A stretch of DNA of 64,000 bases, from NCBI RefSeq assembly GCF_002005445.1, contig NZ_CP014692.1:3554001-3618000 (forward strand), given 5' to 3'. A program made the translations under genes and the position numbers. Of this stretch, positions 16,995 to 29,095 are shown piece after piece. A model generated the notes under the pieces. That model made no database searches and was not told the DNA's origin. It was given only the letters and a program-made list of their open reading frames with translations. How positions within the stretch are numbered: position 1 is the first letter of the stretch; every line of letters begins with the position of its first letter. This stretch comes from Acetobacter aceti (lineage in GTDB: Bacteria; Pseudomonadota; Alphaproteobacteria; Acetobacterales; Acetobacteraceae).

Positions 16995-17711
16995 TCAGAC
17001 GGACAGCAGACGCGTCAAGTAGTCGATATCCGCGTCTGCACGCGTTGTTTCATGTACGATATATCCTCCTTCGATCACAATGATCCGGTCCGCGACATCC
17101 AATGCGAAGCTGAGCACCTGTTCCGACACCATGATGCCAAGTCCGCTTTCGTCACGAATTCCGCGGAGTGTCCTGGCCATATCCCGAATGATTGATGGCT
17201 GTATCCCTTCTGTCGGTTCATCCAGCAGCAGCAGTTTCGGTTCTGTCGCCAGGGCGCGGGCAATGGCCAGTTGCTGCTGCTGGCCACCGGACAGGTTGCC
17301 TCCTCGCCGTGATCCCATTTCTTTCAGAACCGGAAACAGCGTATAAAGCCTGTCCGGAATGCTCGACTTTCCACGCACGAATAAGCCGGTTTCGATATTT
17401 TCCTTCACAGTCATTGCCGGAAAGATCATCCGCCCCTGTGGCACGTAGGCCAGACCGGCCTTTACGCGATCACAGGCGGCCAGCGAGGCCAGTTCCGTCC
17501 CTTCCAGCCGAATTGTTCCCGATCGGATGTTCATGTTGCCAATAAGGGACTTCATGAGCGTGCTTTTGCCCATCCCGTTCCGTCCCATCAGAACGAGGAT
17601 TTCTCCCTGAGCGATTTGCAGGTTGATGCCATGCAGGACTTCGCTGGCTCCATAAGCGACGTGAAGATCGCCTACGTCCAGCAGCATATCCATAACCGGA
17701 GCCGGGGTCAT
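16995..17711 (-). CDS. urtE: Urea/amide ABC transporter ATP-binding protein UrtE
   Basis: A LivF-class ATPase of a branched-chain-amino-acid-type ABC importer. Walker A is 'GRNGMGKSTLMK', the signature 'LSGGQQQQLAIARAL' and Walker B 'LLLLDEPTEG'. The 'TEGIQPSII' immediately after Walker B is characteristic of UrtE rather than LivF. ATG 17711 was chosen to avoid overlap with urtD; longer starts exist. It is the last gene of the urtABCDE operon, which in this locus probably imports urea or formamide-like short amides. Confidence 0.9.
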   Translation of the reverse strand: MTPAPVMDMLLDVGDLHVAYGASEVLHGINLQIAQGEILVLMGRNGMGKSTLMKSLIGNMNIRSGTIRLEGTELASLAACDRVKAGLAYVPQGRMIFPAMTVKENIETGLFVRGKSSIPDRLYTLFPVLKEMGSRRGGNLSGGQQQQLAIARALATEPKLLLLDEPTEGIQPSIIRDMARTLRGIRDESGLGIMVSEQVLSFALDVADRIIVIEGGYIVHETTRADADIDYLTRLLSV

Positions 17712-17718
17712 GCCGCTT

Positions 17719-18465
17719 TCAGTGCCCAAGATACACCTCCACAACTTTAGGATCATTTTTCACATGTTCCATGGAGCCGTCTGATATGATGCGTCCCTGA
17801 TGCAGAACTGTGACCTGATGGGCAATTTTTTCGACGAAGCCCATGTCGTGCTCAATGACCAGAACCGAACGTGACTGGATGATGCGTTGCAGCAGTTCCG
17901 CAGTGCGTACCCGTTCGCTGATCGTCATGCCTGCAACCGGTTCATCCAGCATCAGTAACGCCGGGTCCTGGATCAGAAGCATGCCGATTTCCAGCCACTG
18001 TTTCTGGCCATGACTCAACCCGCTGGCCTGCTGATCCAGTTTGTCATCCAGATAGATCATCGCGGCAATGTCGTTGATCCGTTCGAGCATGGCCCGGTCC
18101 TGCCGGAAAAACAGAGCTTCGAAGACTCCTCGACCGCGGGGATAGGATATCTCCAGATTTTCAAACACCGTCAGATCTTCATAGACGGAAGGCGTCTGGA
18201 ATTTCCGCCCTACGCCTGAACGCACGATGTCGTATTCCTTCATCCGTGTCAGTTCGCGTCCAGCGAAACGGATGGACCCGGATGTGGCGGCAGTGCGGCC
18301 ACAGATCAGATCAAGCACCGTCGTCTTGCCTGCGCCGTTCGGCCCGATAATGACGCGAATCTCGCCGCGATTGATGCGGAACGACAGGTCGTCAACAGCC
18401 TTGAAGCCATCGAAGGACACGCTCAGCCCTTCAACTTCCAGAAGGGATTCGTTCGTCGTTGTCAT
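17719..18465 (-). CDS. urtD: Urea/amide ABC transporter ATP-binding protein UrtD
   Basis: A 248-residue LivG-class ATPase. Walker A is 'GPNGAGKTTVLDLICG', the signature region has 'LSHGQKQWLEIGMLL', Walker B is 'LLMLDEPVAGMT' and the switch His lies in 'VLVIEHDMGFVEKIA'. The LSHGQKQWLEI signature variant is typical of UrtD. It sits 12 bp after urtC and 7 bp before urtE, so it belongs to the same transcript. Confidence 0.93.
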   Translation of the reverse strand: MTTTNESLLEVEGLSVSFDGFKAVDDLSFRINRGEIRVIIGPNGAGKTTVLDLICGRTAATSGSIRFAGRELTRMKEYDIVRSGVGRKFQTPSVYEDLTVFENLEISYPRGRGVFEALFFRQDRAMLERINDIAAMIYLDDKLDQQASGLSHGQKQWLEIGMLLIQDPALLMLDEPVAGMTISERVRTAELLQRIIQSRSVLVIEHDMGFVEKIAHQVTVLHQGRIISDGSMEHVKNDPKVVEVYLGH

Positions 18466-18477
18466 GTTAAGCTCTCC

Positions 18478-19593
18478 CTACGCCTTTTCATCCGTGGGAC
18501 TGGACGCCTTGCTGCTCAGTGCGCTCAAAAAGCGGTCCACATACCGGTCGAGATGAGTTCGGTACAGGCTGGCAAGACCACCGGGGAGGAACAGCACGAT
18601 CCCGATGAACAGCCCGCCCATGGCGAAGGTCCAGAGTTCGGGTAGTGATTCCGAAAAGCTCGTTCGCGCCCAGTTGACGACCAATGTGCCGTACACTGCT
18701 CCGAACAGGGAGTTCCGGCCACCGACCGCGCAGTAAATGACCATTTCGATGGATGGCACGATCCCGACGAAGGTCGGCGACATGAATCCGACTTCCAGCG
18801 TGAACAGTGCGCCGCCGATACCGGCCATGGCCGCACAGAACGCAAAAATGAAAATCTTGAAGTTCGCCACGTTGTATCCGGAAAACCGGACACGATCTTC
18901 CTGATCCCGTATTGCGCGCAGGATACGGCCCAGCTTGCTGCGCCGGACGAAACGGACCATCAGCATGCAGACCAGAAGCAGGATCGCCCCGACGTAATAG
19001 AGAACCAGTTTCGCGTGGTCACTCTGGATATCCCAGCCATTCAGTGTTCGCAGATCGGTAATGCCGTTGACGCCACCGGTATAGCCCTGCTGCCCTATGA
19101 TGAGGATGGTCAGGATCGACGCGATGGCCTGGGTGATGATCGCAAAATAAGTGCCACCCACACGACGGCGAAACATGGCGATACCAATGACCATGGCCAG
19201 AAGTGTCGGAACTGCCAGCACGGCCAGAAATGTAAAGGACAGGCTGTGGAATGGTTTCCAGAACCATGGCAGGGCTGTGATCTGGTTCCAATCCATGAAA
19301 TCGGGAATCCCCGGAGTGGACTGGCTTTTGGTCGCTTCTGGTGTCGACGCCTGGAGTTTCAGGAACATCGCCATGCAATATCCGCCAAGGCCAAAGAATA
19401 TTCCCTGTCCCAGACTGAGGATTCCCGTGTCGCCCCAGCAGGCGACCAGCCCGATGGCCACGAAGGCGTAGGTCAGATATTTTCCGACCAGCGTCAGGCG
19501 AAACGCATCCAGCCCCACGGGCAGCACGACCAGAAGAACCACGGCGAGGATACTGAAGAACAGGATATCCTTGCGGTTCTGAAGGGAAAACAT
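18478..19593 (-). CDS. urtC: Urea/amide ABC transporter permease UrtC
   Basis: A 371-residue LivM-type permease with about nine or ten membrane helices and the 'YLTYAFVAIGLVACWGDTGILSLGQGIFFGLGGY' entry typical of UrtC. The 'RAIRDQEDRVRFSGYNV' EAA-like loop contacts the ATPases, and 'IPSIEMVIYCAVGGRNSLFGAVYG' is a further UrtC mark. ATG 19593 has a strong GGGAGA site just upstream; an ATG at 19641, three bases past the urtB stop, is the alternative. The protein works in the inner membrane with UrtB. Confidence 0.93.
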   Translation of the reverse strand: MFSLQNRKDILFFSILAVVLLVVLPVGLDAFRLTLVGKYLTYAFVAIGLVACWGDTGILSLGQGIFFGLGGYCMAMFLKLQASTPEATKSQSTPGIPDFMDWNQITALPWFWKPFHSLSFTFLAVLAVPTLLAMVIGIAMFRRRVGGTYFAIITQAIASILTILIIGQQGYTGGVNGITDLRTLNGWDIQSDHAKLVLYYVGAILLLVCMLMVRFVRRSKLGRILRAIRDQEDRVRFSGYNVANFKIFIFAFCAAMAGIGGALFTLEVGFMSPTFVGIVPSIEMVIYCAVGGRNSLFGAVYGTLVVNWARTSFSESLPELWTFAMGGLFIGIVLFLPGGLASLYRTHLDRYVDRFLSALSSKASSPTDEKA

Positions 19594-19643
19594 GTCTTTC
19601 TCCCGAAATATGGAAATTTTGGCCTGAACGCGCGTCAGCATTT

Positions 19644-20570
19644 TCAACGCCGGACCTTGAGTGCAAACAGACCCTGGGGACGGATCATCAGGATTCCCAC
19701 GACTGTCAGCAGGACGATCACCTGCGCCATTGAGCCGTTGAAGAAGAATTCGAGGATTGAACGCACCTGCGAAATGCTGAAAGCCGAGGCTATCGTTCCG
19801 CCCAGACTTTCTGTCCCACCGAAAGCGACCACCAGAAACGTGTCCACGATATATTGTTGTCCCGCCGTAGGACTGGTGGAACCGATCATGGTGAAGGCTG
19901 CGCCGGCGACGCCCGCAACTCCGCAACCGAGCCCGAATGTTGTGCGATCAACCCATTCAGTATCGATACCAACCGCGCCGGCCATGCTCCGGTTCTGCAT
20001 CACCGCCCGCACCTGCTTGCCCCAGCCGGAACGATAGAGGAGCGCATAGACGCCGCCGGTAATCAGCAGCGTCAGGGAGATGACGATCATACCGTTGATC
20101 GGGATCTGGATGGTGTCGGTCAGATTCCATGACCCCATCATCCATGAAGGCAATGTTACGCCGACCTCGCGTGCACCGAAAGTCGAACGCAGAACCTGTT
20201 GCAGGATCAGGCTGACGCCCCAGGTTGCAAGCAGCGTGTCGAGCGGTCTTTTGTAGAGAAAGCGTATCAACGACCACTCCAGCAACATCCCGATTCCTCC
20301 AGCAACGATGAAGGCCAGGATGACAGCGAAGAAGAAGTAAAGGCCGAACAGACCGGGCAACCACCGCTCGAAAATCTGCGAGCAGACATAGGTCGTGTAG
20401 GCGCCGAGAATCATGAATTCGCCGTGCGCCATATTGATGACGCCCATCTGGCCGAACACGATCGCCAGCCCCAGTGCCATCAGGAGGAAAACCGAAAACA
20501 GAATGAGTCCGGCGAAGCTCTGCATGACGAAAATCGACGCCAGATCGTTGACTGAATATCCCGCGAACAT
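19644..20570 (-). CDS. urtB: Urea/amide ABC transporter permease UrtB
   Basis: A 308-residue LivH-type permease with about eight hydrophobic segments. It contains the family stretch 'LFSVFLLMALGLAIVFGQMGVINMAHGEFMILGAY', the coupling loop 'VRAVMQNRSMAGAVGIDT' and 'FGGTESLGGTIASA'. ATG 20570 is preceded by GGGGGA at good spacing, better than the start nine codons earlier. It forms the membrane channel with UrtC and lies about 100 bp after urtA. Confidence 0.93.
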   Translation of the reverse strand: MFAGYSVNDLASIFVMQSFAGLILFSVFLLMALGLAIVFGQMGVINMAHGEFMILGAYTTYVCSQIFERWLPGLFGLYFFFAVILAFIVAGGIGMLLEWSLIRFLYKRPLDTLLATWGVSLILQQVLRSTFGAREVGVTLPSWMMGSWNLTDTIQIPINGMIVISLTLLITGGVYALLYRSGWGKQVRAVMQNRSMAGAVGIDTEWVDRTTFGLGCGVAGVAGAAFTMIGSTSPTAGQQYIVDTFLVVAFGGTESLGGTIASAFSISQVRSILEFFFNGSMAQVIVLLTVVGILMIRPQGLFALKVRR

Positions 20571-20668
20571 CGAGATCCCCCCTGATGAAGGACACATGGG
20601 CGCGACACAGGAAAACAGAGCCTGGACGCGACCTGATGATATGAAAAATTATTTTTGCAAAAAGAGTT

Positions 20669-21931
20669 TTACTGATAGCCAACCGGGAAAGGGTTAGGCT
20701 CGATCAGGTCAGGTGTCTGGTAGATGACATTGAACTGGCCATCCGTCCGCGCCTGCCCGACCAGCGTGCGGCTCCATAAATGATGATTCTTGGCGATGCG
20801 GACATAACCTTCGGGTGCGTCCTTGAATTCGATCCCCGGTGAGGCTTCGATAACCTTGTCGATATCGAACGATCCGGCTTTCTCGACGCTCATTTTCCAA
20901 AGCCACGGGCCCAGATAGGCGGCCTGGGTCACATCACCGATCACGCTGTTCTCCCCCCACATTTTCTTGAAGGCAGCGACGAATTTCTGATTTTCCGGAG
21001 TTGCAATGCTCTGGAAATATTTCATGCAGGCGTAGGCGCCGGCAATGTTCTCGCCACCGATACCAAGAATTTCGTCCTCAGTGACCGAAATGGTCATCAG
21101 GTTATGTTTCGACAGATCCAGCCCGGCAGCTTTCAGCTGCTTGTAGAAGGCGACATTCGAACCACCGACAATAATCGCGTAGATCACATCGGGCTTTGTG
21201 AGCTTGATCTTGTTGATGACCGAATTGAACTGTGAATCGCCAAGAGGGAAATATTCCTCTCCTACGACGCGAGATCCCTTCAGATGGTTTTCAATATGCT
21301 TGCGTGCGATCTTGTTCGCGGTACGTGGCCAGATATAGTCGGACCCAAGCAGATAATACGTTTTGGCGTTCTTTTCCTTGGAAATCCAGTCGAGGCCCGC
21401 CAGAATCTGCTGCGTCGCTTCCTGGCCCGTGTAGATCACGTTGCGGGACTGTTCCAGACCCTCGTAGAAAGTCGGATAGTAAAGCAACCCGTTATAATGC
21501 TCGAAAACCGGCAGCACCGCTTTGCGCGAGGCAGAAGTCCAGCAGCCGAACACCGAGGCGCATTTATCGTTTTCCAGCAGTTTGCGCGCCTTCTCGGCGA
21601 AGGTCGGCCAGTCGCTGGCGCCATCTTCCTGAATATACTTGATCTTGCGTCCCAGAACGCCACCCGCCTCGTTGATCTGCGTGATTGCAAGCTTCTCGGC
21701 TTCAACCGATCCGGTTTCGCTCAGAGCCATTGTGCCGGTGATGGAATGCAGGATGCCAACAGTCACGCTATCGTCGGTGACGGCCAGGCCGGTCTTGTTG
21801 ACCGATGCGGTGGCTGGGGTATCCGCTCTGGCCAGATGCGGTATCAGCGCACCGACGGGTAGCGCTGACATGCCCATCAGAACCTTGCGACGGCTATAGT
21901 GTATGTTCAACGGATTTTTTCTGTCAGGCAT
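20669..21931 (-). CDS. urtA: Urea/short-amide-binding protein UrtA, Tat-exported
   Basis: A 420-residue periplasmic binding protein. The N-terminus has a twin-arginine signal ('SRRKVLMG', then 'MSALPVGALIPHLARA'). The mature part begins 'TVGILHSITGTMALSETG' and contains 'GGVLGRKIKYIQEDGASDWP' and 'GCWTSASRKAVLPVFE', which are diagnostic for UrtA. Known homologues bind urea, and related proteins in methylotrophs bind short amides. With a formamidase and no urease nearby, formamide or another short amide is a plausible ligand here. ATG 21931 is chosen over a TTG 37 codons upstream. It reads divergently from the sensor kinase gene. Confidence 0.92.
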   Translation of the reverse strand: MPDRKNPLNIHYSRRKVLMGMSALPVGALIPHLARADTPATASVNKTGLAVTDDSVTVGILHSITGTMALSETGSVEAEKLAITQINEAGGVLGRKIKYIQEDGASDWPTFAEKARKLLENDKCASVFGCWTSASRKAVLPVFEHYNGLLYYPTFYEGLEQSRNVIYTGQEATQQILAGLDWISKEKNAKTYYLLGSDYIWPRTANKIARKHIENHLKGSRVVGEEYFPLGDSQFNSVINKIKLTKPDVIYAIIVGGSNVAFYKQLKAAGLDLSKHNLMTISVTEDEILGIGGENIAGAYACMKYFQSIATPENQKFVAAFKKMWGENSVIGDVTQAAYLGPWLWKMSVEKAGSFDIDKVIEASPGIEFKDAPEGYVRIAKNHHLWSRTLVGQARTDGQFNVIYQTPDLIEPNPFPVGYQ

Positions 21932-22146
21932 TATCTGTTCACCTTCGCTGCAAGTGTCCGTGTTCTTGGGGACGACATGACAAGGATTCAGATCAGACAG
22001 CGCATTTTCCATACGTCGATTGACGTAGCGTGCCGGAAGCAAAAGACACTATTTTATTTCGATTTCGATATGTAGAGTAAGGCCAACCGAAAATCGCTGT
22101 GTTCGGCCATACGGAAAGATCTATGTTTCCACATCAGCGAATCATT

Positions 22147-25100
22147 ATGTCACGTCGCAGCTACAACCGTCTGGTCGTGGACGAGACGATGGAAGACTAC
22201 GCCTTGCGTTTCACGCCGGCTTCGGCCCGGCGCTGGTCGCTGCCGAGCGTCGCCAACACGGCTTTTGGAGGCGTGTCGTTTCTGGCGCTGGAAATGATCG
22301 GCGGTCTGGTTTTTCTGCAATATGGTTTCACCAACGCAACATTGGCGCTGCTGATCGGTGTAGCACTGATTTTCCTGCTCAGCCTGCCTATCAGCTATCA
22401 TTCATCACGCTGCGGCATCGATATCGACCTGCTCACGCGCGGAGCGGGCTTCGGCTATATCGGATCGACGCTGACCTCGCTGGTCTACGCATCGTTCACA
22501 TTCATGTTCTTCGCCATCGAAGGCGCGATCCTGTCCGATATCCTGAAGCTGAGTCTGGGTATTCCGCTCTGGCTGGGATACATCCTGTCCACACTGGTTG
22601 TCATACCCATCGTCGCACGGGGCTTTACGCTCATCAGCCGGTTTCAGGCATGGACGGTCATACCGTGGCTGGCGCTTCAGCTTTTGCCCTTCGTGGTGAT
22701 CGCGTGGCGACAGCCCGATGCGGCGGCTGGGTGGTCGCATTATGCGGGACAGAATCCGTCAATGCCCCGACTGATGGGGATTGGAGCGGCATTTTCCATC
22801 ATCTTCTCTGTTGTTACCCAGATAGGCGAACAGTCGGATTTTCTGCGCTTCCTCCCCATCCCGCAGAATGGACGGCAGAAATGGGCATGGTGGATGGTCA
22901 TCCTGACCTGTGGTGCCGGATGGATCTTCGCGGGCGGGCTGAAGATCCTGGCGGGTATGTTCCTGGCCTGGCTGACCCTGCGTCAGGGAATGCCCTCCGC
23001 CGTCGCGCAGCAGCCGACGACAATGTATCTGATGGCGTTCAGACAGGTGACGGCTCACTCCGGCTGGGCGCTCGCCCTGACCACTCTTTTCATTGCGTTG
23101 TCTCAGATCAAGATCAATATCACCAACGCCTATGCCGGATCGATTGCGTGGTCCAATTTCTTCTCGCGCGTCACACACAGTCATCCGGGTCGCGTCGTGT
23201 GGCTAGCATTCAATGTTGGACTTGCGCTGCTGCTGATGGAAATGGACATCTACAGCACCATCATCAGTCTGCTGTTTCTGCATTCAACCGTCGCCGCCTC
23301 CTGGATCGGTGCGTTGACGTCCGATCTGGTCGTCAACAAGCCTCTGGGTCTCAGCCCACCGGGCATCGAATTTCGTCGCGCTTACCTGTACGACATCAAT
23401 CCTGTCGGTATTGGAGCCATGACCGGTGGTATTGTGGCGTCGGCAGCGTTTTATCTTGGAGCATTCGGGCCCACGCTGGCTGTTTTCGCGCCTATGGCCG
23501 CGCTGGTCTGCGCCTTCTGTCTGGCTCCCCTTATCGGTTGGGCGACGCGAGGCCGGTATTATCTGGCGCGTCGTCGCTTCGTGCCGCCGGCGGATTGCAA
23601 CCGGTATGTCTGTGTGGTCTGCCAGAACAGTTTTGAAGGCGAGGATATTGCCCGTTGCCCCGTATATGCGGGTTTCATATGCTCGCTGTGCTGCAGTCTG
23701 GATTCACGCTGCCGCGACGCGTGCAAGCCGGATGGCGCGCGTCTGAGCGGCCAGATAGCATCCGTGGCGCGCGTATTGCTGCCGCAGGCGCTCATGACGC
23801 CCAATCTCGGAATCATCTATCGCTATCTGGCTATCCTGTTTGCGCTGATGGCCTGTACCGGTGGTGTGCTTTGCGGACTGTATGTTGCGATCGTTCCATT
23901 CACCACGGTTCAGTCCTCCGGCCTGTATGCGGTTTTGTGGAAGACGTTCTTCCTGCTGCTACTGCCACTGGCAATGTTGGCATGGTTCGTGGTCCTGAAC
24001 CAGCGAAGCTATCGTGCCGCTGAAGACGAAAACCGCTACCAGACCCAGCTGTTGATGAAAGAAATACGCGCTCATCGTCGGACCGATCAGCAACTGAAGA
24101 AAGCCAAGGAGCGCGCAGAAGCGGCCAATCTGTCAAAAAGCCGCTTCATGGTCGGCGTGAATCACGAAATCCGCACTCCGCTCAATTCGATAATGGGATA
24201 TGCCTATCTTCTGGAAAACCGGATGTTGACCCCGGCGCGGCGGGATGAAGGGCTGAAGGTCATCCAGCGCAGCGCCGAGCATCTGAGTGGTCTGATCGAG
24301 GGTCTGTTCGACATCTCCAAGATCGAAGCAGGCCGGATGGACGTGCTGCACGAAAAAATCAACCTGCGCGACTTCCTGCGGCATCTGACCGATATGCTGC
24401 GATTTCAGGCCAATCAGAGGAATCTTGATTTCATTGAGGATATCCCGGACACTATTCCGGACTATGTCATCACCGACCAGCGTCGATTGAGGCAGATTCT
24501 GATCAACCTGCTGTCAAACGCGATAAAATTCACGAATCAGGGCTCCGTCTCACTTTCAGTCCGCTGGGGGACGGAGATTGCGATATTCGAAATCCGTGAC
24601 ACAGGGATCGGTATCCCGGAAGAGGATATGGACCGCATCCATGAACCATTTCAGCGGAGTTCGCACCCGAATTCCCGTAGTATTCCCGGAACCGGTCTCG
24701 GGCTGACCATAACGAGCCTGCTGGTCCAGATCCTGGGGGGAGAGTTGACGATTTCCAGCAAGGTCGGACAGGGGACGACCTGTCGCGTGCGGTTGATGCT
24801 GGCCAGCGCTCCGTCTGATACGGGAACGATGCCCCCGATAAGTCTGCTGACAAAAACAGGATCAATGGCGATGGGAGAGCGTCGGCCCAGTGTCTTCGTG
24901 GTCGATGATGACCCGATTCATAGGGGCATGATCAACGATACTCTGGAACCGCTGGGTTTCGTGGTCTATTCTGCCGCTGACGGACAGGAATGTCTGGATA
25001 TCGCCGCTCATGCTTCGATCGATCTGTTTCTGCTGGACGTCAACATGCCCGGCATGAACGGATGGCAACTGGCCCGCAGGCTACGGCAGGGGATCAATCG

Positions 25101-25476
25101 TGCCTCCGTTATCCTGATCATCTCTGCCGACGAGCAGGTAAGAACTCAGGCAAACAGCGAAGGATTGTGTGATGGCATCCTGTCCAAGCCAATTTCCATC
25201 TCCGAGTTGCTGACCCTGATTGACCGTACGCTGGTTCCGATGCCTCTCCCTCCCGAAGCTGCCTCTCAGACCATGACAGCTCGGTTACTGACGCCAGCCG
25301 CTCTGTCAGAACTCCGGCGTCTGGCCCGGCTTGGCCATATCGCCGGCCTGATACGTTTTCTGGACACGATTGCAGACACGGCGCCGGACGACGCGCGGAT
25401 TATCCGTGATCTGGCAAAAAATTTTCAGATCGGGGAATTGCGCGCTTTCTTCGATAACTACGAGGAGCGTCGATGA
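22147..25476 (+). CDS. NCS1-permease-like membrane domain fused to a hybrid histidine kinase
   Basis: 1109 residues from ATG 22147 (upstream in-frame starts are possible). Residues about 20-480 resemble cytosine/purine NCS1 permeases with some 12 membrane helices ('WSLPSVANTAFGGVSFLALE', 'GIDIDLLTRGAGFGYIGS', 'INITNAYAGSIAWSNFF'). A Cys-rich segment follows ('CVVCQNSFEGEDIARCPVYA', 'ICSLCCSLDSRCRDACKP'). Two more helices come next, then a histidine kinase with His673 in 'NHEIRTPLNSIMGY', 'NLLSNAIKF' and 'DTGIGIPEEDM', and a receiver domain with Asp964 ('LLDVNMPGMNG'). It overlaps its response regulator by 4 bp and diverges from urtA. The likely job is sensing, perhaps by transport, of the urea or amide ligand and induction of urt and amiF. 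Confidence 0.9.
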   Translation: MSRRSYNRLVVDETMEDYALRFTPASARRWSLPSVANTAFGGVSFLALEMIGGLVFLQYGFTNATLALLIGVALIFLLSLPISYHSSRCGIDIDLLTRGAGFGYIGSTLTSLVYASFTFMFFAIEGAILSDILKLSLGIPLWLGYILSTLVVIPIVARGFTLISRFQAWTVIPWLALQLLPFVVIAWRQPDAAAGWSHYAGQNPSMPRLMGIGAAFSIIFSVVTQIGEQSDFLRFLPIPQNGRQKWAWWMVILTCGAGWIFAGGLKILAGMFLAWLTLRQGMPSAVAQQPTTMYLMAFRQVTAHSGWALALTTLFIALSQIKINITNAYAGSIAWSNFFSRVTHSHPGRVVWLAFNVGLALLLMEMDIYSTIISLLFLHSTVAASWIGALTSDLVVNKPLGLSPPGIEFRRAYLYDINPVGIGAMTGGIVASAAFYLGAFGPTLAVFAPMAALVCAFCLAPLIGWATRGRYYLARRRFVPPADCNRYVCVVCQNSFEGEDIARCPVYAGFICSLCCSLDSRCRDACKPDGARLSGQIASVARVLLPQALMTPNLGIIYRYLAILFALMACTGGVLCGLYVAIVPFTTVQSSGLYAVLWKTFFLLLLPLAMLAWFVVLNQRSYRAAEDENRYQTQLLMKEIRAHRRTDQQLKKAKERAEAANLSKSRFMVGVNHEIRTPLNSIMGYAYLLENRMLTPARRDEGLKVIQRSAEHLSGLIEGLFDISKIEAGRMDVLHEKINLRDFLRHLTDMLRFQANQRNLDFIEDIPDTIPDYVITDQRRLRQILINLLSNAIKFTNQGSVSLSVRWGTEIAIFEIRDTGIGIPEEDMDRIHEPFQRSSHPNSRSIPGTGLGLTITSLLVQILGGELTISSKVGQGTTCRVRLMLASAPSDTGTMPPISLLTKTGSMAMGERRPSVFVVDDDPIHRGMINDTLEPLGFVVYSAADGQECLDIAAHASIDLFLLDVNMPGMNGWQLARRLRQGINRASVILIISADEQVRTQANSEGLCDGILSKPISISELLTLIDRTLVPMPLPPEAASQTMTARLLTPAALSELRRLARLGHIAGLIRFLDTIADTAPDDARIIRDLAKNFQIGELRAFFDNYEERR

Positions 25477-26375
25477 CCAGCATTGTACTCGTCGTGGACG
25501 ACGAACCTGTCAATCTCTCTCTTGCCACCGACATTCTGGAATCTGGAGGCTTTACGGTTCTTGTTGCGCAATCGGCTGACGACGGTCTGGCCATTCTGGC
25601 CGATGTTCCGGTGGATCTGGTGTTGCTGGATGCCGTGATGCCGGGGAAAGATGGATTCCAGATGTGCCGTATCATGAAGGCGGTCCCGGATTATCGTGAC
25701 ATTCCAGTCATTTTCATGACCGGACTGTCCGGGCAGGATGACATTGTTCTGGCATTTGAAACGGGCAGTGTTGATTATATCGTCAAGCCCATCAAGCCCG
25801 CTGAACTGCTGGCCCGCACGCGCACGCATCTGGACAATGCCAGAAAAACCAAGAAAATTTTTCGTGCCATAAACTTTTCCGGCCGTCATTTTCTGGCCAC
25901 TGACAGGGAAGGCGTGGTGCAGTGGTTCTCTCCGCAGGTTCCCTCCATTATCGGGAACACCGCAGCCTATGGCACGACGTTAAATCTGCCAGCGGACACT
26001 CTGTGCTGGCTGCTGGCCTGCATCAATACGCCGTCATCCGTTGATGTCAGCTACAGACAGCAGGATACGGATGTGGAGTACGGTGTTGAATTCAGTTTCA
26101 TGGGACAGCCTGAACCCCATGAATATCTGGTGCGTCTGGCCGTTGTCCGGGACGGACAGGACATTACATGTCTTCAGGTACGACTGGGCCTGACGGTTCG
26201 GGAGGCCGAGGTTCTGTTCTGGGTGGCAAAAGGCAAGACCAATCGTGACATTGCCGAAATCCTGTCGATCAGCCATCGAACGATCAATAAACACCTTGAG
26301 CAGATATACATAAAAATAGGCGTGGAAAACAGGACGGCCGCAACCGCCCGTGTTCTCCACGCTCTTCATGGATAG
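25473..26375 (+). CDS. Response regulator, receiver plus LuxR-type HTH
   Basis: 300 residues. The N-terminal receiver has 'VLVVDDEPVNLSLA', phosphoacceptor Asp53 in 'LVLLDAVMPGKDG', 'VIFMTG' and Lys in 'DYIVKPIKP'. A middle region of about 90 residues ('RHFLATDREGVVQWFSPQV...') has no family I recognise. The C-terminal LuxR/FixJ helix-turn-helix lies at about 236-295 ('LTVREAEVLFWVAKGKTNRDI'). The ATG overlaps the sensor stop (ATGA), so the two form a two-component system. It faces amiF; targets are probably the urtA and amiF promoters. Confidence 0.93.
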   Translation: MTSIVLVVDDEPVNLSLATDILESGGFTVLVAQSADDGLAILADVPVDLVLLDAVMPGKDGFQMCRIMKAVPDYRDIPVIFMTGLSGQDDIVLAFETGSVDYIVKPIKPAELLARTRTHLDNARKTKKIFRAINFSGRHFLATDREGVVQWFSPQVPSIIGNTAAYGTTLNLPADTLCWLLACINTPSSVDVSYRQQDTDVEYGVEFSFMGQPEPHEYLVRLAVVRDGQDITCLQVRLGLTVREAEVLFWVAKGKTNRDIAEILSISHRTINKHLEQIYIKIGVENRTAATARVLHALHG

Positions 26376-26378
26376 AAA

Positions 26379-27386
26379 TTATTTAGGCATTGGACCGAGT
26401 TTCACACCATCCGGATAATATTTCCAGCCATCCCGGATACGCACCTTGTTGTCCCAGGGAAGCTTGTACTCTCCGGCGGCAAGATCTCTTACCCAGGTCA
26501 GGTAATTGGCCTTCTCGCCACCCGGCTTACCGACATAGGCCCGGCATCCCAGATTGAAGATGTTGTTTTCCAATGCCCAGTTTTCGCGCGCCTTGTCCAC
26601 CAGGCGAGGGAACAGTTCTGCGGTAACGATTTCCCACGGGTTGCGGTGTCCCTGCTGGATCACGTTGCCGTCGTAATTGCAGACCGTACCTTCACCAAAA
26701 TAGTAGAACACATTGTCATATCCAGCCAGATTGACCGATATGGTGTACATCAGGTTATGCCAGGCGTTGGTTCTGTTGGTCCAGATCCACTGGTCGTTGA
26801 CCTGCGTCGAATAGCCGGAGATGCGAATATAGACATTCGCGCCTTTGTAAGCCGCCTCGCGCGCCAGTTCGGGGAACATGCCATCATGACAGATGCATAC
26901 CGCCAGACGGGATCCCTTGGGACCATCACAGACCGGCATCCCGAAATTTCCCGGTGACCAGGGTTCGATAGGCACCCATGGCTGCAATTTGCGGTAATGC
27001 AGTGCGATCTCACCATCAGCATTGATGATGATGGCTGTGTTGTAGGGAGGCAGCGACGGATCTTCGTTTCGCTCCATGAGCGAGAAGACACCCCATATAT
27101 CGTTGCGCTTGCAGGCTTCCTTGAAACGGGTGATTTCCGGGCTTTCGACCGTCAGCAGCATTTCGTCGTAAGTCCAGATCGACGTATTCAGGCCCTGTGT
27201 CGAATATTCCGGGAATACAATGACATCCAGGTCCGGGTATCCGGCCTTGGTTGAATCGACCGCGCGGCAGATCTGATCAACCTGCGTCTGAATATCTTCG
27301 GGGCCTTTGATGACCGGGACCGGATACTGAACCAGTGCGATCAGAAGAGCCTCTTCCCACGCGCTTACGCTCCCTGTGCTTCCCAT
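26379..27386 (-). CDS. amiF: Formamidase
   Basis: A 335-residue nitrilase-superfamily amidohydrolase very close to Helicobacter pylori AmiF, which hydrolyses formamide to formate and ammonia (EC 3.5.1.49). From ATG 27386 (AAGGA 7 bases upstream) the catalytic triad falls at exactly the H. pylori numbers: Glu60 ([11 protein letters not shown]), Lys133 (HYRKLQPW) and Cys166 (VCICHDGM). Blocks such as '[20 protein letters not shown]' and '[16 protein letters not shown]' are almost family-invariant. It converges with the response regulator gene with only a 3-bp gap. The ammonia would feed nitrogen metabolism. Confidence 0.95.
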
Positions 27387-27781
27387 AAACCGTTCCTTTG
27401 CAAAAACGACGACCGTATTCGGCCAGTCAGACAGCAGATCGAAGACGTATCGTCTCCAACCCATGAAGCAACCGTCACGCATCATGTGGATTCAGGCCCA
27501 TACGTCGTTTGACTTACGGTTTATAAAAAAAATCTTTTATCACCATGAAAGATGAGGAATTGTATTGTCTTCGGACTTACTGGCTGCTCGGATCATGTCA
27601 AAGCGTGTAAACGGCTGAAAGCGTTTAATGGTTTGTGCTGGAGGTCTTGTTCTGCCTGAAGGCATGTCCACTGGGGTCAGAAAATTCATTAAATGAAAGA
27701 TGTTTCTCAAATTATTTAAGCGTGGAGAGAGGAAAAACAGAGTGTCCAGAGAGGTCTTTCTGTGGCTGTCATCTGTAAATT
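27387..27781. other. Intergenic stretch between amiF and mntH
   Basis: About 395 bp without a supported gene. It must contain the amiF promoter; AT-rich segments lie at about 27515-27570 and 27680-27740. No clear terminator for mntH is visible. Confidence 0.4.
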
Positions 27782-29095
27782 CTATCCCATCAATGTATCA
27801 TAAAGCAGCTTGAAGTTCAGCACGAGGATGATGCCCGACACCCCCCACGCCAGCCCCGCGACAGGCCGGGAAATGGTGAACCGTCCCATCATGTCGCGCC
27901 GCGTCACGAACCAGACCAGAGGCACCACGGCGAAGGGAAGCTGCATGGACAGGATGACCTGACTCAGCAGCAACAGGTTATCCACGCTTTTGTCGCCAAA
28001 CCAGACGGAGGCGATCACCACCGGCACGATGGCGAGACCCCGTGTCAGCAGGCGTCGCGCCCAGTCGGGCAGACGCAGGTGCAGGAAGCCTTCCATCACG
28101 ATCTGTCCGGCGAGCGTGCCGGTGATGGTCGAGTTCATTCCCGCCGCGAGCAGGGCCACGGCGAACAGGGTCGAGGCCAGCGCCGCGCCGAGCACGGGAG
28201 AGAGCAGATGGTAGGCCACGCCGATCTCCGCCACGTTGCTATGACCCGTTGAATGGAAGGCGGCCGCAGCCACGATCAGGATGGCGGCGTTGATGAACAG
28301 CGCCAGTGACAGGGCGATGGTGCTGTCGAGCGTGGCGAAGCGGATGGCCTCGCGCCTGCCGTCAGGTGTGCGTTCATAGGCGCGGGTCTGCACGATGGAG
28401 GAGTGCAGGTAGAGGTTGTGCGGCATGACCGTCGCGCCGACGATACCGATGGCGATGTAGAGCATCGTGTGGTTGGTCAGGATGCTGGTCGTGGGGATGA
28501 ACCCGTGCAGGATACCGCCCGCCGGAGGGTGGGCCATGACCAGTTGCGCGGCAAAACAGGCGGCGATGATGCATAGCAACCCGATGATGAAGGCTTCGAG
28601 ATAACGGAAGCCTCGTCCCATCAGCAGCAGCACGATGAACGCGTCCAGCGCCGAAAGCAGCGAGCCGGTCAGCAGGGAAAAGCCGAACAGGAGTTGCAGG
28701 GCGATGGCCGTGCCGATCACCTCGGCCAGATCGCAGGCGATGATGGCCAGTTCGCAGGCCAGCCACAGCAGCAGATTGACCCCGGGCGAAAAACGCTCCC
28801 GACAGGCCTGCGCGAGATCCATTCCCGTTGCGATGCCCAGACGGGCTGAGAGCGCCTGAAGCAGGACCGCCATCAGGTTGGACAGCAGGACGACACTGAG
28901 CAGCGCATAGCCGAACTGCGCTCCGCCCTGCAGGTCTGTCGCCCAGTTGCCGGGGTCCATGTAGCCGACTGAAATGAGGTATCCGGGTCCGATAAAGGCC
29001 AGAAATCGTCTCAGTGTGGAAGCGTCGGGGCCGGGGACATGGATGGTCGCGAAAACATCCGGAAGGCTGCGGCGGGTGCTGTCTGCGTTCGGCAC
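27782..29095 (-). CDS. mntH: Nramp-family Mn(II)/Fe(II) transporter MntH
   Basis: 437 residues, about 11 membrane helices. MntH takes up Mn2+ (and Fe2+) with protons across the inner membrane. The metal-site motif Asp47-Pro-Gly-Asn50 ('[19 protein letters not shown]') is intact in helix 1, and the helix-6 motif appears as '[19 protein letters not shown]' with the metal-coordinating Met and the conserved His. The gene stands alone on the minus strand and diverges from an aminotransferase gene; a possible operator lies upstream. Confidence 0.95.

Follow-up and report, generated by a model that had tools for sequence, protein, structure and literature searches.

A putative sense-import-hydrolyse module for formamide in Acetobacter aceti, with AmiF in the place of FmdA

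Which substrate is imported by a urtABCDE transporter whose genes lie beside a formamidase gene, and is that formamidase gene controlled together with the importer? The question is raised by a locus of Acetobacter aceti (genome of 3.73 Mb, one contig, NZ_CP014692.1), found in a stretch of 64,000 nucleotides, positions 3554001-3618000, that is hereafter called the window. The locus comprises urtABCDE, the gene of a hybrid histidine kinase with a transporter-like sensor, the gene of a LuxR-type response regulator and amiF (Table 1); open reading frames (ORFs) and domain models give the genes and the order claimed in an earlier note on this DNA, here called the original prediction. Very probably, the locus is a sense-import-hydrolyse module for formamide, perhaps also for other short amides, in which importer and formamidase would stand under one switch and urea would be handled separately. 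It is a known type of amide module, the FmdA type, in which AmiF replaces FmdA and which is placed under a system made of an NCS1-like sensor and a LuxR-type regulator. Four kinds of observation, all made on sequence, carry this reading: the gene content, a difference in the UrtA binding pocket, a pair of candidate operators with its conservation, and the linkage of this type of UrtA to formamidases.

The UrtA pocket and the enzymes linked to it

All five Urt proteins of the window pass the cut-offs of the NCBIfam urea-transporter models, as in UrtABCDE-urease systems; the locus differs from these systems by a Phe in the UrtA pocket, by a linked formamidase and by the lack of a linked urease. 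Gln144 of P. marinus UrtA contacts both urea nitrogens, through its side chain and its main chain, and mutation of this residue lowers or abolishes binding (PMC10392092; this and the other papers are cited for those parts of their text that were available). The window UrtA does not hold the full set of urea-contact residues, since Gln144 is replaced, by Phe156. At the position of P. marinus Phe192 it has Trp202, where the class of its paralogue (see below) has Tyr, while seven contacts (W120, S122, Y141, E146, Y190, N246 and S274 in P. marinus numbering) are unchanged. The pocket Gln is found in the sequences of the solved structures 8hic, 7s6e and 7s6f and in the top match, 8tg1, and is replaced by Pro in AmiC. 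With Phe where Gln would bind the second amide nitrogen, the pocket would fit a mono-amide ligand.

The neighbourhoods of relatives were compared in the window and 127 further stretches, 47 from the same family and 80 named kinase loci, with four duplicate pairs among them. The family sample consisted of 200 genomes (that of the window included), 43 of which contain a sensor homologue. An alignment of 29 sensors (A1) served for a species-wide search that gave at least 591 confirmed candidates among at least 597 pattern matches, and the named loci (L080-L159) are the best 80 of these, ranked by likeness to the window sensor. They are spread across Alpha-, Beta- and Gammaproteobacteria; the kinase family is widespread in Proteobacteria. 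The window and paralogue proteins, plus FmdA and AmiE, were used as queries, and family models confirmed FmdA, FmdB and AmiE for representative sequences only. For UrtA, 102 matches were longer than 330 residues. Of these, 96 were read; the remaining six, each with a stop among the first 27 matched residues, were set aside and agree with the others (five Phe with FmdA, one Gln with UreC).

Two classes of UrtA emerge. Members of one are 66-82% identical to the window protein and occur with FmdA, often also with AmiE; members of the other are 60-83% identical to the paralogue and often occur with urease. Phe occupies the pocket position in all 69 distinct UrtAs of the window class (identical rows removed, window included), the UrtA of L062, which is 45% identical and has Gln, being counted apart. 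The neighbours of these 69 are FmdA in 38 cases, FmdA and AmiE in 21, AmiF in one (the window) and no enzyme in nine, and all nine enzyme-less stretches stop short of the place of fmdA. A formamidase is therefore found near every Phe-type UrtA whose stretch is long enough (60/60; 59 FmdA, one AmiF), and UreC near none of the 69 within the stretches examined. Conversely, Gln occupies the pocket position in 24 of 24 UrtAs of the paralogue class, with UreC nearby in 15, none of these enzymes seen in eight, and one mixed case, L138, where the stretch also contains FmdA and a Phe-type UrtA. Import of amide rather than urea, one of the options in the original prediction, is thus supported by the exchange of Gln for Phe and by the formamidase linkage.

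AmiF itself passes the formamidase model (Table 1) and fails the aliphatic amidase model (236.9 bits, cut-off 427). It aligns without gaps with H. pylori AmiF (2dyu) over residues 1-309, and the predicted triad E60-K133-C166 is exact. Position 27386 is the better start, as had been proposed: it corresponds to M34 of the longest ORF, where the match to the formamidase model begins. An AmiF scoring over the cut-off is encoded by 24 of 397 family genomes, and all 24 neighbourhoods were examined, some of them short. In five (the genome studied here, three of the same genus and one of another genus) amiF lies beside the regulator and kinase genes in the same order, which in one of them, G254, is visible only up to urtA, at a contig end. 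The AmiFs of these five genomes are 90-100% identical to that of the window, whereas the other 19 (42-47%) have no urt genes or such a kinase in the stretches examined, some of which are short. In the two most distant of the five, AmiF is 90-94% and the regulator 57-63% identical, with the kinase down to about 66%, which indicates that the arrangement has been held across some divergence. The distant amiF genes (L176, L194-L211) have ABC (ATP-binding cassette) ATPase genes nearby in 14 of 19 stretches, their products being 26-34% identical to UrtD/UrtE, away from any urt or kinase gene.

Candidate control elements, the paralogous set and the sensor

The palindrome TACGTCR-NN-YGACGTA recurs upstream of genes for window-type kinases in other Proteobacteria. 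In the window, candidate operator 1 lies 80 bp from urtA and 71 bp from the kinase start codon GTG 22099 (95 bp from ATG 22123), and candidate operator 2 lies 114 bp upstream of the amiF start. At one mismatch or fewer, the pattern TACGTCRNNYGACGTA has two sites in the genome, namely these two. An operator-like copy is found upstream of amiF in all five genomes with a close AmiF, where the block reads TACGTCAAACGACGTA (two relatives), TACGTTAAACGACGTA, TACGTCAAACAACGTA and TAAGTCAAACGACGTA (window) between diverged flanks. In each of the four related amiF stretches the core occurs, at ≤1 mismatch, exactly twice, once at urtA/kinase and once upstream of amiF; in all four loci the copy upstream of amiF is an exact TACGTN6ACGTA. 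The arrangement of 7-2-7 nucleotides is that of the inverted repeats recognised by NarL-type regulators, and this shape fits a LuxR-type partner of the kinase as the putative ligand of the sites. Control of the divergent urtA and the convergent amiF by the kinase, also part of the original prediction, is supported by this putative operator pair, at the level of sequence only.

In a 530-bp region spanning the sensor start, 61 of 109 distinct kinase loci have a site at ≤1 mismatch and 92 at ≤2, compared to 0 and 22 for the reversed pattern; the 109 exclude duplicates, loci that lack a kinase core and regions shorter than 300 bp. The exact pattern occurs 25 times in the 200 family genomes, in 22 of them (own included), against five times for the reversed control, and 16 of the 25 sites are at kinase loci. 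The other nine lie upstream of OprB-type porin genes (two), inside ORFs (three), before unrelated ORFs (two) or with no ORF nearby (two). The porin sites (L270:4016 and L271:3866, in two genomes) are about 125 bp upstream of the gene and distant from the kinase, and an OprB-type porin is a possible outer-membrane member of the regulon, the sole candidate retained from the nine sites. The sites L273:5107 and L274:5044, in small genomes, match the amiF operator of two relatives letter for letter, and no ORF of 100 residues begins within 450 bp of them. The operator would be a regulon signature for a family of transporter-derived sensors.

Although the original prediction was right that urease genes are lacking at the locus, they are not lacking in the genome, whose sole match for the urease alpha subunit (ureC, with its neighbours) is found beyond the window, at 1.15 Mb and 2.4 Mb away along the contig. 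A second urtABCDE-kinase-regulator set (L033, C1:1222500-1242000) is found at 1.23 Mb, some 80 kb away from the urease, and the two lie 2.3-2.4 Mb from the locus. Identity to the window counterparts is 40% for the UrtA of this set, which is of the Gln type, and 48-49% for its sensor. Its operator variant, TACGCAAACTTGCGTA (TACGCA-N4-TGCGTA), differs from that of the window. This variant has one exact site in the genome, at the promoter of the second set itself, and one further site at one mismatch (reversed control, nine). FmdA (PF03069) has no match in the genome. A urease elsewhere that is co-regulated with urt had been named as part of a finding that would speak against the prediction; a urease is present, but the window operator at ≤1 mismatch occurs only at urtA/kinase and amiF, with no copy near the urease. 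With two paralogous systems, one of the amide and one of the urea type, with different operator variants in one genome, sensor specificity and insulation become directly testable.

The sensor had been called NCS1-like, by eye alone. This was insufficient, since the window sensor has no Pfam match at E≤5 and no convincing PDB structure was found by sequence, and a comparison of profiles was required. A distant homologue, L079, matches PF02133, and a profile of 40 sensors aligned with a 19-row profile of PF02133 hits at 96.6% in hhalign (E 6.7e-10, 389 columns), or at 97.5% (E 7.2e-12) once two doubtful rows with a guessed frame, L237 and L240, were removed; the controls UrtB, UrtC and MntH gave 0.2-0.6%. 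The NCS1 assignment, invisible to Pfam, is supported by profiles. The membrane part is followed by four cysteines (C505, C508, C528 and C531) that are invariant in 120 rows (L076 left out), the polar residues Q241, E244, Q245, N340 and N343 are also invariant, and the HisKA histidine lies in NHEIRTPLN. I242, next to the invariant Q241, is among the positions that differ most clearly between amide- and urea-linked sensors, a difference not used here as evidence. A tree of 121 sensors clusters by class of linked transporter (14 changes, against a shuffled mean of 41.7 and none as low in 200 shuffles); in this tree duplicates were kept, the window row sits on a long branch with unsure placement, and the 'standalone' L050 and L156 are cut contigs. 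Standalone homologues without a kinase and with a shorter Cys-rich tail occur beside urease genes in relatives (L070, L071, L073, L074, L075) and are candidate urea permeases. L060 and L061 combine urease genes, FmdA, a hybrid kinase, a regulator and a standalone sensor-like permease in a single locus.

The scheme that these features suggest is as follows. The transporter-like sensor would respond to a small amide and the kinase would phosphorylate the LuxR-type regulator, which would bind TACGTCR-NN-YGACGTA in the urtA/kinase gap and upstream of amiF, presumably as an activator, and so switch on the importer, the kinase and regulator genes and the formamidase jointly. The Phe-type UrtA would hand the amide to UrtBCDE, and AmiF would yield ammonia and formate. 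Urea would be handled by the separate set at 1.15-1.23 Mb, with its Gln-type UrtA, second kinase and regulator, TACGCA-N4-TGCGTA operator and urease. A broader proposal, which I regard as moderately probable, is that NCS1-sensor kinases and their LuxR partners form an operator-based switch for both urea- and amide-type urt genes, that Gln or Phe separates the two kinds of UrtA, and that AmiF replaced FmdA and gained the operator. If true, this exchange with conservation of the operator would be a clear example of the recruitment of an unrelated enzyme to the same regulon.

Counter-evidence and alternative explanations

Several points weigh against the amide module or set limits to the evidence for it. 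TIGR03407 labels both UrtAs of the genome urea-binding and hardly separates them by score (546 and 550 bits), replacement of Gln by Phe is no proof that urea is excluded, and FmdDEF of Methylophilus is described as carrying short-chain amides and urea (PMC10781810). The number of operators in the genome is not above control: the reversed pattern and the pattern itself have, respectively, three and two sites at ≤1 mismatch, 43 and 18 at ≤2, and four and one when the exact core is counted. Evidential weight rests on the placement of the two sites, not on their number; given a density of two or three sites in 3.7 Mb, the chance of a site in a given 400-bp upstream region is about 3 in 10,000. Since the R and Y letters of the pattern were fixed after both sites were known, a matrix was built from 39 named loci, recognised family members being dropped (some metagenome bins carry no family); its sites had themselves been picked at ≤1 mismatch to the core first found in the window. 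In the 64-kb window this matrix ranks 22012 first (25.9 bits) and 27501 second (21.0 bits), followed by a third site at 8.3 bits, and the best score in 1.5 Mb of random sequence is 13.9 bits. Use of the operator variant as a divider between amide and urea loci everywhere fails, a site at ≤1 mismatch being present at 8 of 30 urea-type loci, as well as at 52 of 73 amide-type and 1 of 6 other loci. The balance of classes is no census, because the named sample consists of the nearest 80 loci and favours the amide class. Such clusters get annotated as urea transporters, and a single urea model accepts UrtAs of both classes; the Phe/Gln position would offer a one-residue test by which 'urea' clusters could be re-annotated as amide transporters.

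A module for urea only was rejected, as the pocket, the linkage and the operators argue against it. An importer of broad specificity is harder to dismiss: UrtABCDE would carry urea and amides and feed both the distant urease and AmiF, with a kinase that senses either substrate. In its favour, a urease is encoded in the genome, and the window protein agrees with urea-binding UrtA at seven of nine contact positions. This reading is nevertheless unlikely given that the same genome has a Gln-type UrtA set with a kinase and a regulator of its own, that the operator at ≤1 mismatch is absent near the urease and that, in the stretches examined, urease accompanies none of the 69 Phe-type UrtAs. At the other extreme, the locus could scavenge nitrogen in general, with amiF as a chance neighbour under unrelated control, in keeping with its convergent position outside the urt operon and with the 19 of 24 family AmiF genomes that show no urt genes or such a kinase near amiF (some stretches being short). 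I rejected this as highly improbable on gene order and operator conservation in five genomes, all of which keep amiF beside the regulator gene, even where identity falls to about 66% for the kinase and 57% for the regulator, and an operator-like copy upstream of amiF. The last alternative bears on the sensor, whose NCS1-like domain would itself transport the amide and signal by transport, as proposed for CbrA. The standalone homologues beside urease genes and the invariant polar residues that they have in common with the kinase sensors are in its favour, but the transmembrane part of CbrA is reported to be dispensable for histidine uptake (PMC6591292), and the idea is a doubtful one.

Related systems and the remaining features of the locus

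The original prediction held that such a module is little described. The module type is in fact already known, and novelty seems to lie in the replacement of FmdA by AmiF, in the paired operators, in the pocket signature and in the family of sensors. In Methylophilus methylotrophus, fmdCABDEF is induced by formamide and urea (PMC10781810); compared by description, that system has an FmdA-type formamidase, FmdB and a porin, where the window has AmiF, the kinase/LuxR pair and the candidate operator. With FmdA-type modules the window shares an importer beside a formamidase gene, here amiF, but lacks FmdA. The urt genes lie beside fmdA and amiE in Bradyrhizobium (blr0968-0973, PMC3098086) and in Pseudomonas veronii Yu15, a strain that grew on both formamide and acetamide (PMC13209695), and amide transport by such clusters has already been suggested for both; the window differs from them in having AmiF instead of FmdA/AmiE. 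Neither the kinase nor the pocket change nor an operator comes up in the available parts of these two papers ('histidine kinase' occurs 0 times in PMC13209695). Window-type kinase and regulator genes stand beside urt-FmdA-AmiE clusters in Bradyrhizobium and Pseudomonas relatives in the neighbourhood comparison. In Ectopseudomonas, urt genes accompanied by those of a hybrid kinase and a LuxR-type regulator are described as a urea transport operon, and by locus-tag order fmdA adjoins them (PMC13296017). A full-text search, weak since subscription papers are mostly outside its reach, found no study of a window-type kinase, its operator or the pocket change.

AmiC of P. aeruginosa binds amides and is the regulator that holds the antiterminator AmiR, neither a transporter subunit nor a kinase, unlike the products of the window genes. 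It is a relative of UrtA (PDB 1pea, 159 bits) and likewise lacks the pocket Gln (Pro). A similar account of AmiC/AmiR is given in PMC13209695. Among sensors, those of CrbS/CrbR and CbrA/CbrB resemble the window kinase in coupling a membrane domain of transporter type to a histidine kinase, and CrbS also ends in a REC domain; the window sensor is NCS1-like while those of CrbS and CbrA are of the SLC5 type, and it has a Cys-rich segment where CbrA has STAC (PMC6591292). The window kinase would also differ from CrbS and CbrA in serving nitrogen rather than carbon substrates. CrbR, like the window regulator, is LuxR-type.

Table 1. Features of the amide locus, in window coordinates
Feature	Coordinates	Strand	Remarks
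urtE, ABC ATPase	16995..17756	-	TIGR03410 316 bits, cut-off 286
urtD, ABC ATPase	17719..18465	-	TIGR03411 372 bits, cut-off 304
urtC, permease	18478..19593	-	TIGR03408 438 bits, cut-off 296
urtB, permease	19644..20597	-	TIGR03409 402 bits, cut-off 250
urtA, substrate-binding protein, Phe (amide) class	20669..21931	-	F156, W202 (P0003 numbering)
Candidate operator 1, TACGTCGATTGACGTA, urtA/kinase gap	22012..22027	.	only exact TACGTN6ACGTA in the genome
Hybrid histidine kinase: NCS1-permease-like sensor, Cys-rich tail, HisKA, HATPase, REC	22099..25476	+	
Response regulator: REC, unassigned linker of ~120 residues, LuxR/NarL-type helix-turn-helix (GerE)	25473..26375	+	
amiF, nitrilase-type formamidase	26379..27386	-	NF009803 602.7 bits, cut-off 406
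Candidate operator 2, TAAGTCAAACGACGTA read towards amiF, 1 mismatch	27501..27516	.	

The start of urtC was set at M112 of the longest ORF, in which the TIGR03408 match begins at residue 137. A 4-bp overlap joins the kinase gene to the regulator gene, and amiF is convergent with the latter. A scan for promoter and terminator consensus sequences gave no usable result. In another genome of the genus the two parts of the kinase core stand about 2 kb apart (L066:5478-8907), as though an insertion had separated them. Directly upstream of amiF and on the same strand, the window contains an mntH-type Nramp gene (27782-29095); none was seen in the G295 stretch, and in G375 such a gene adjoins amiF also.

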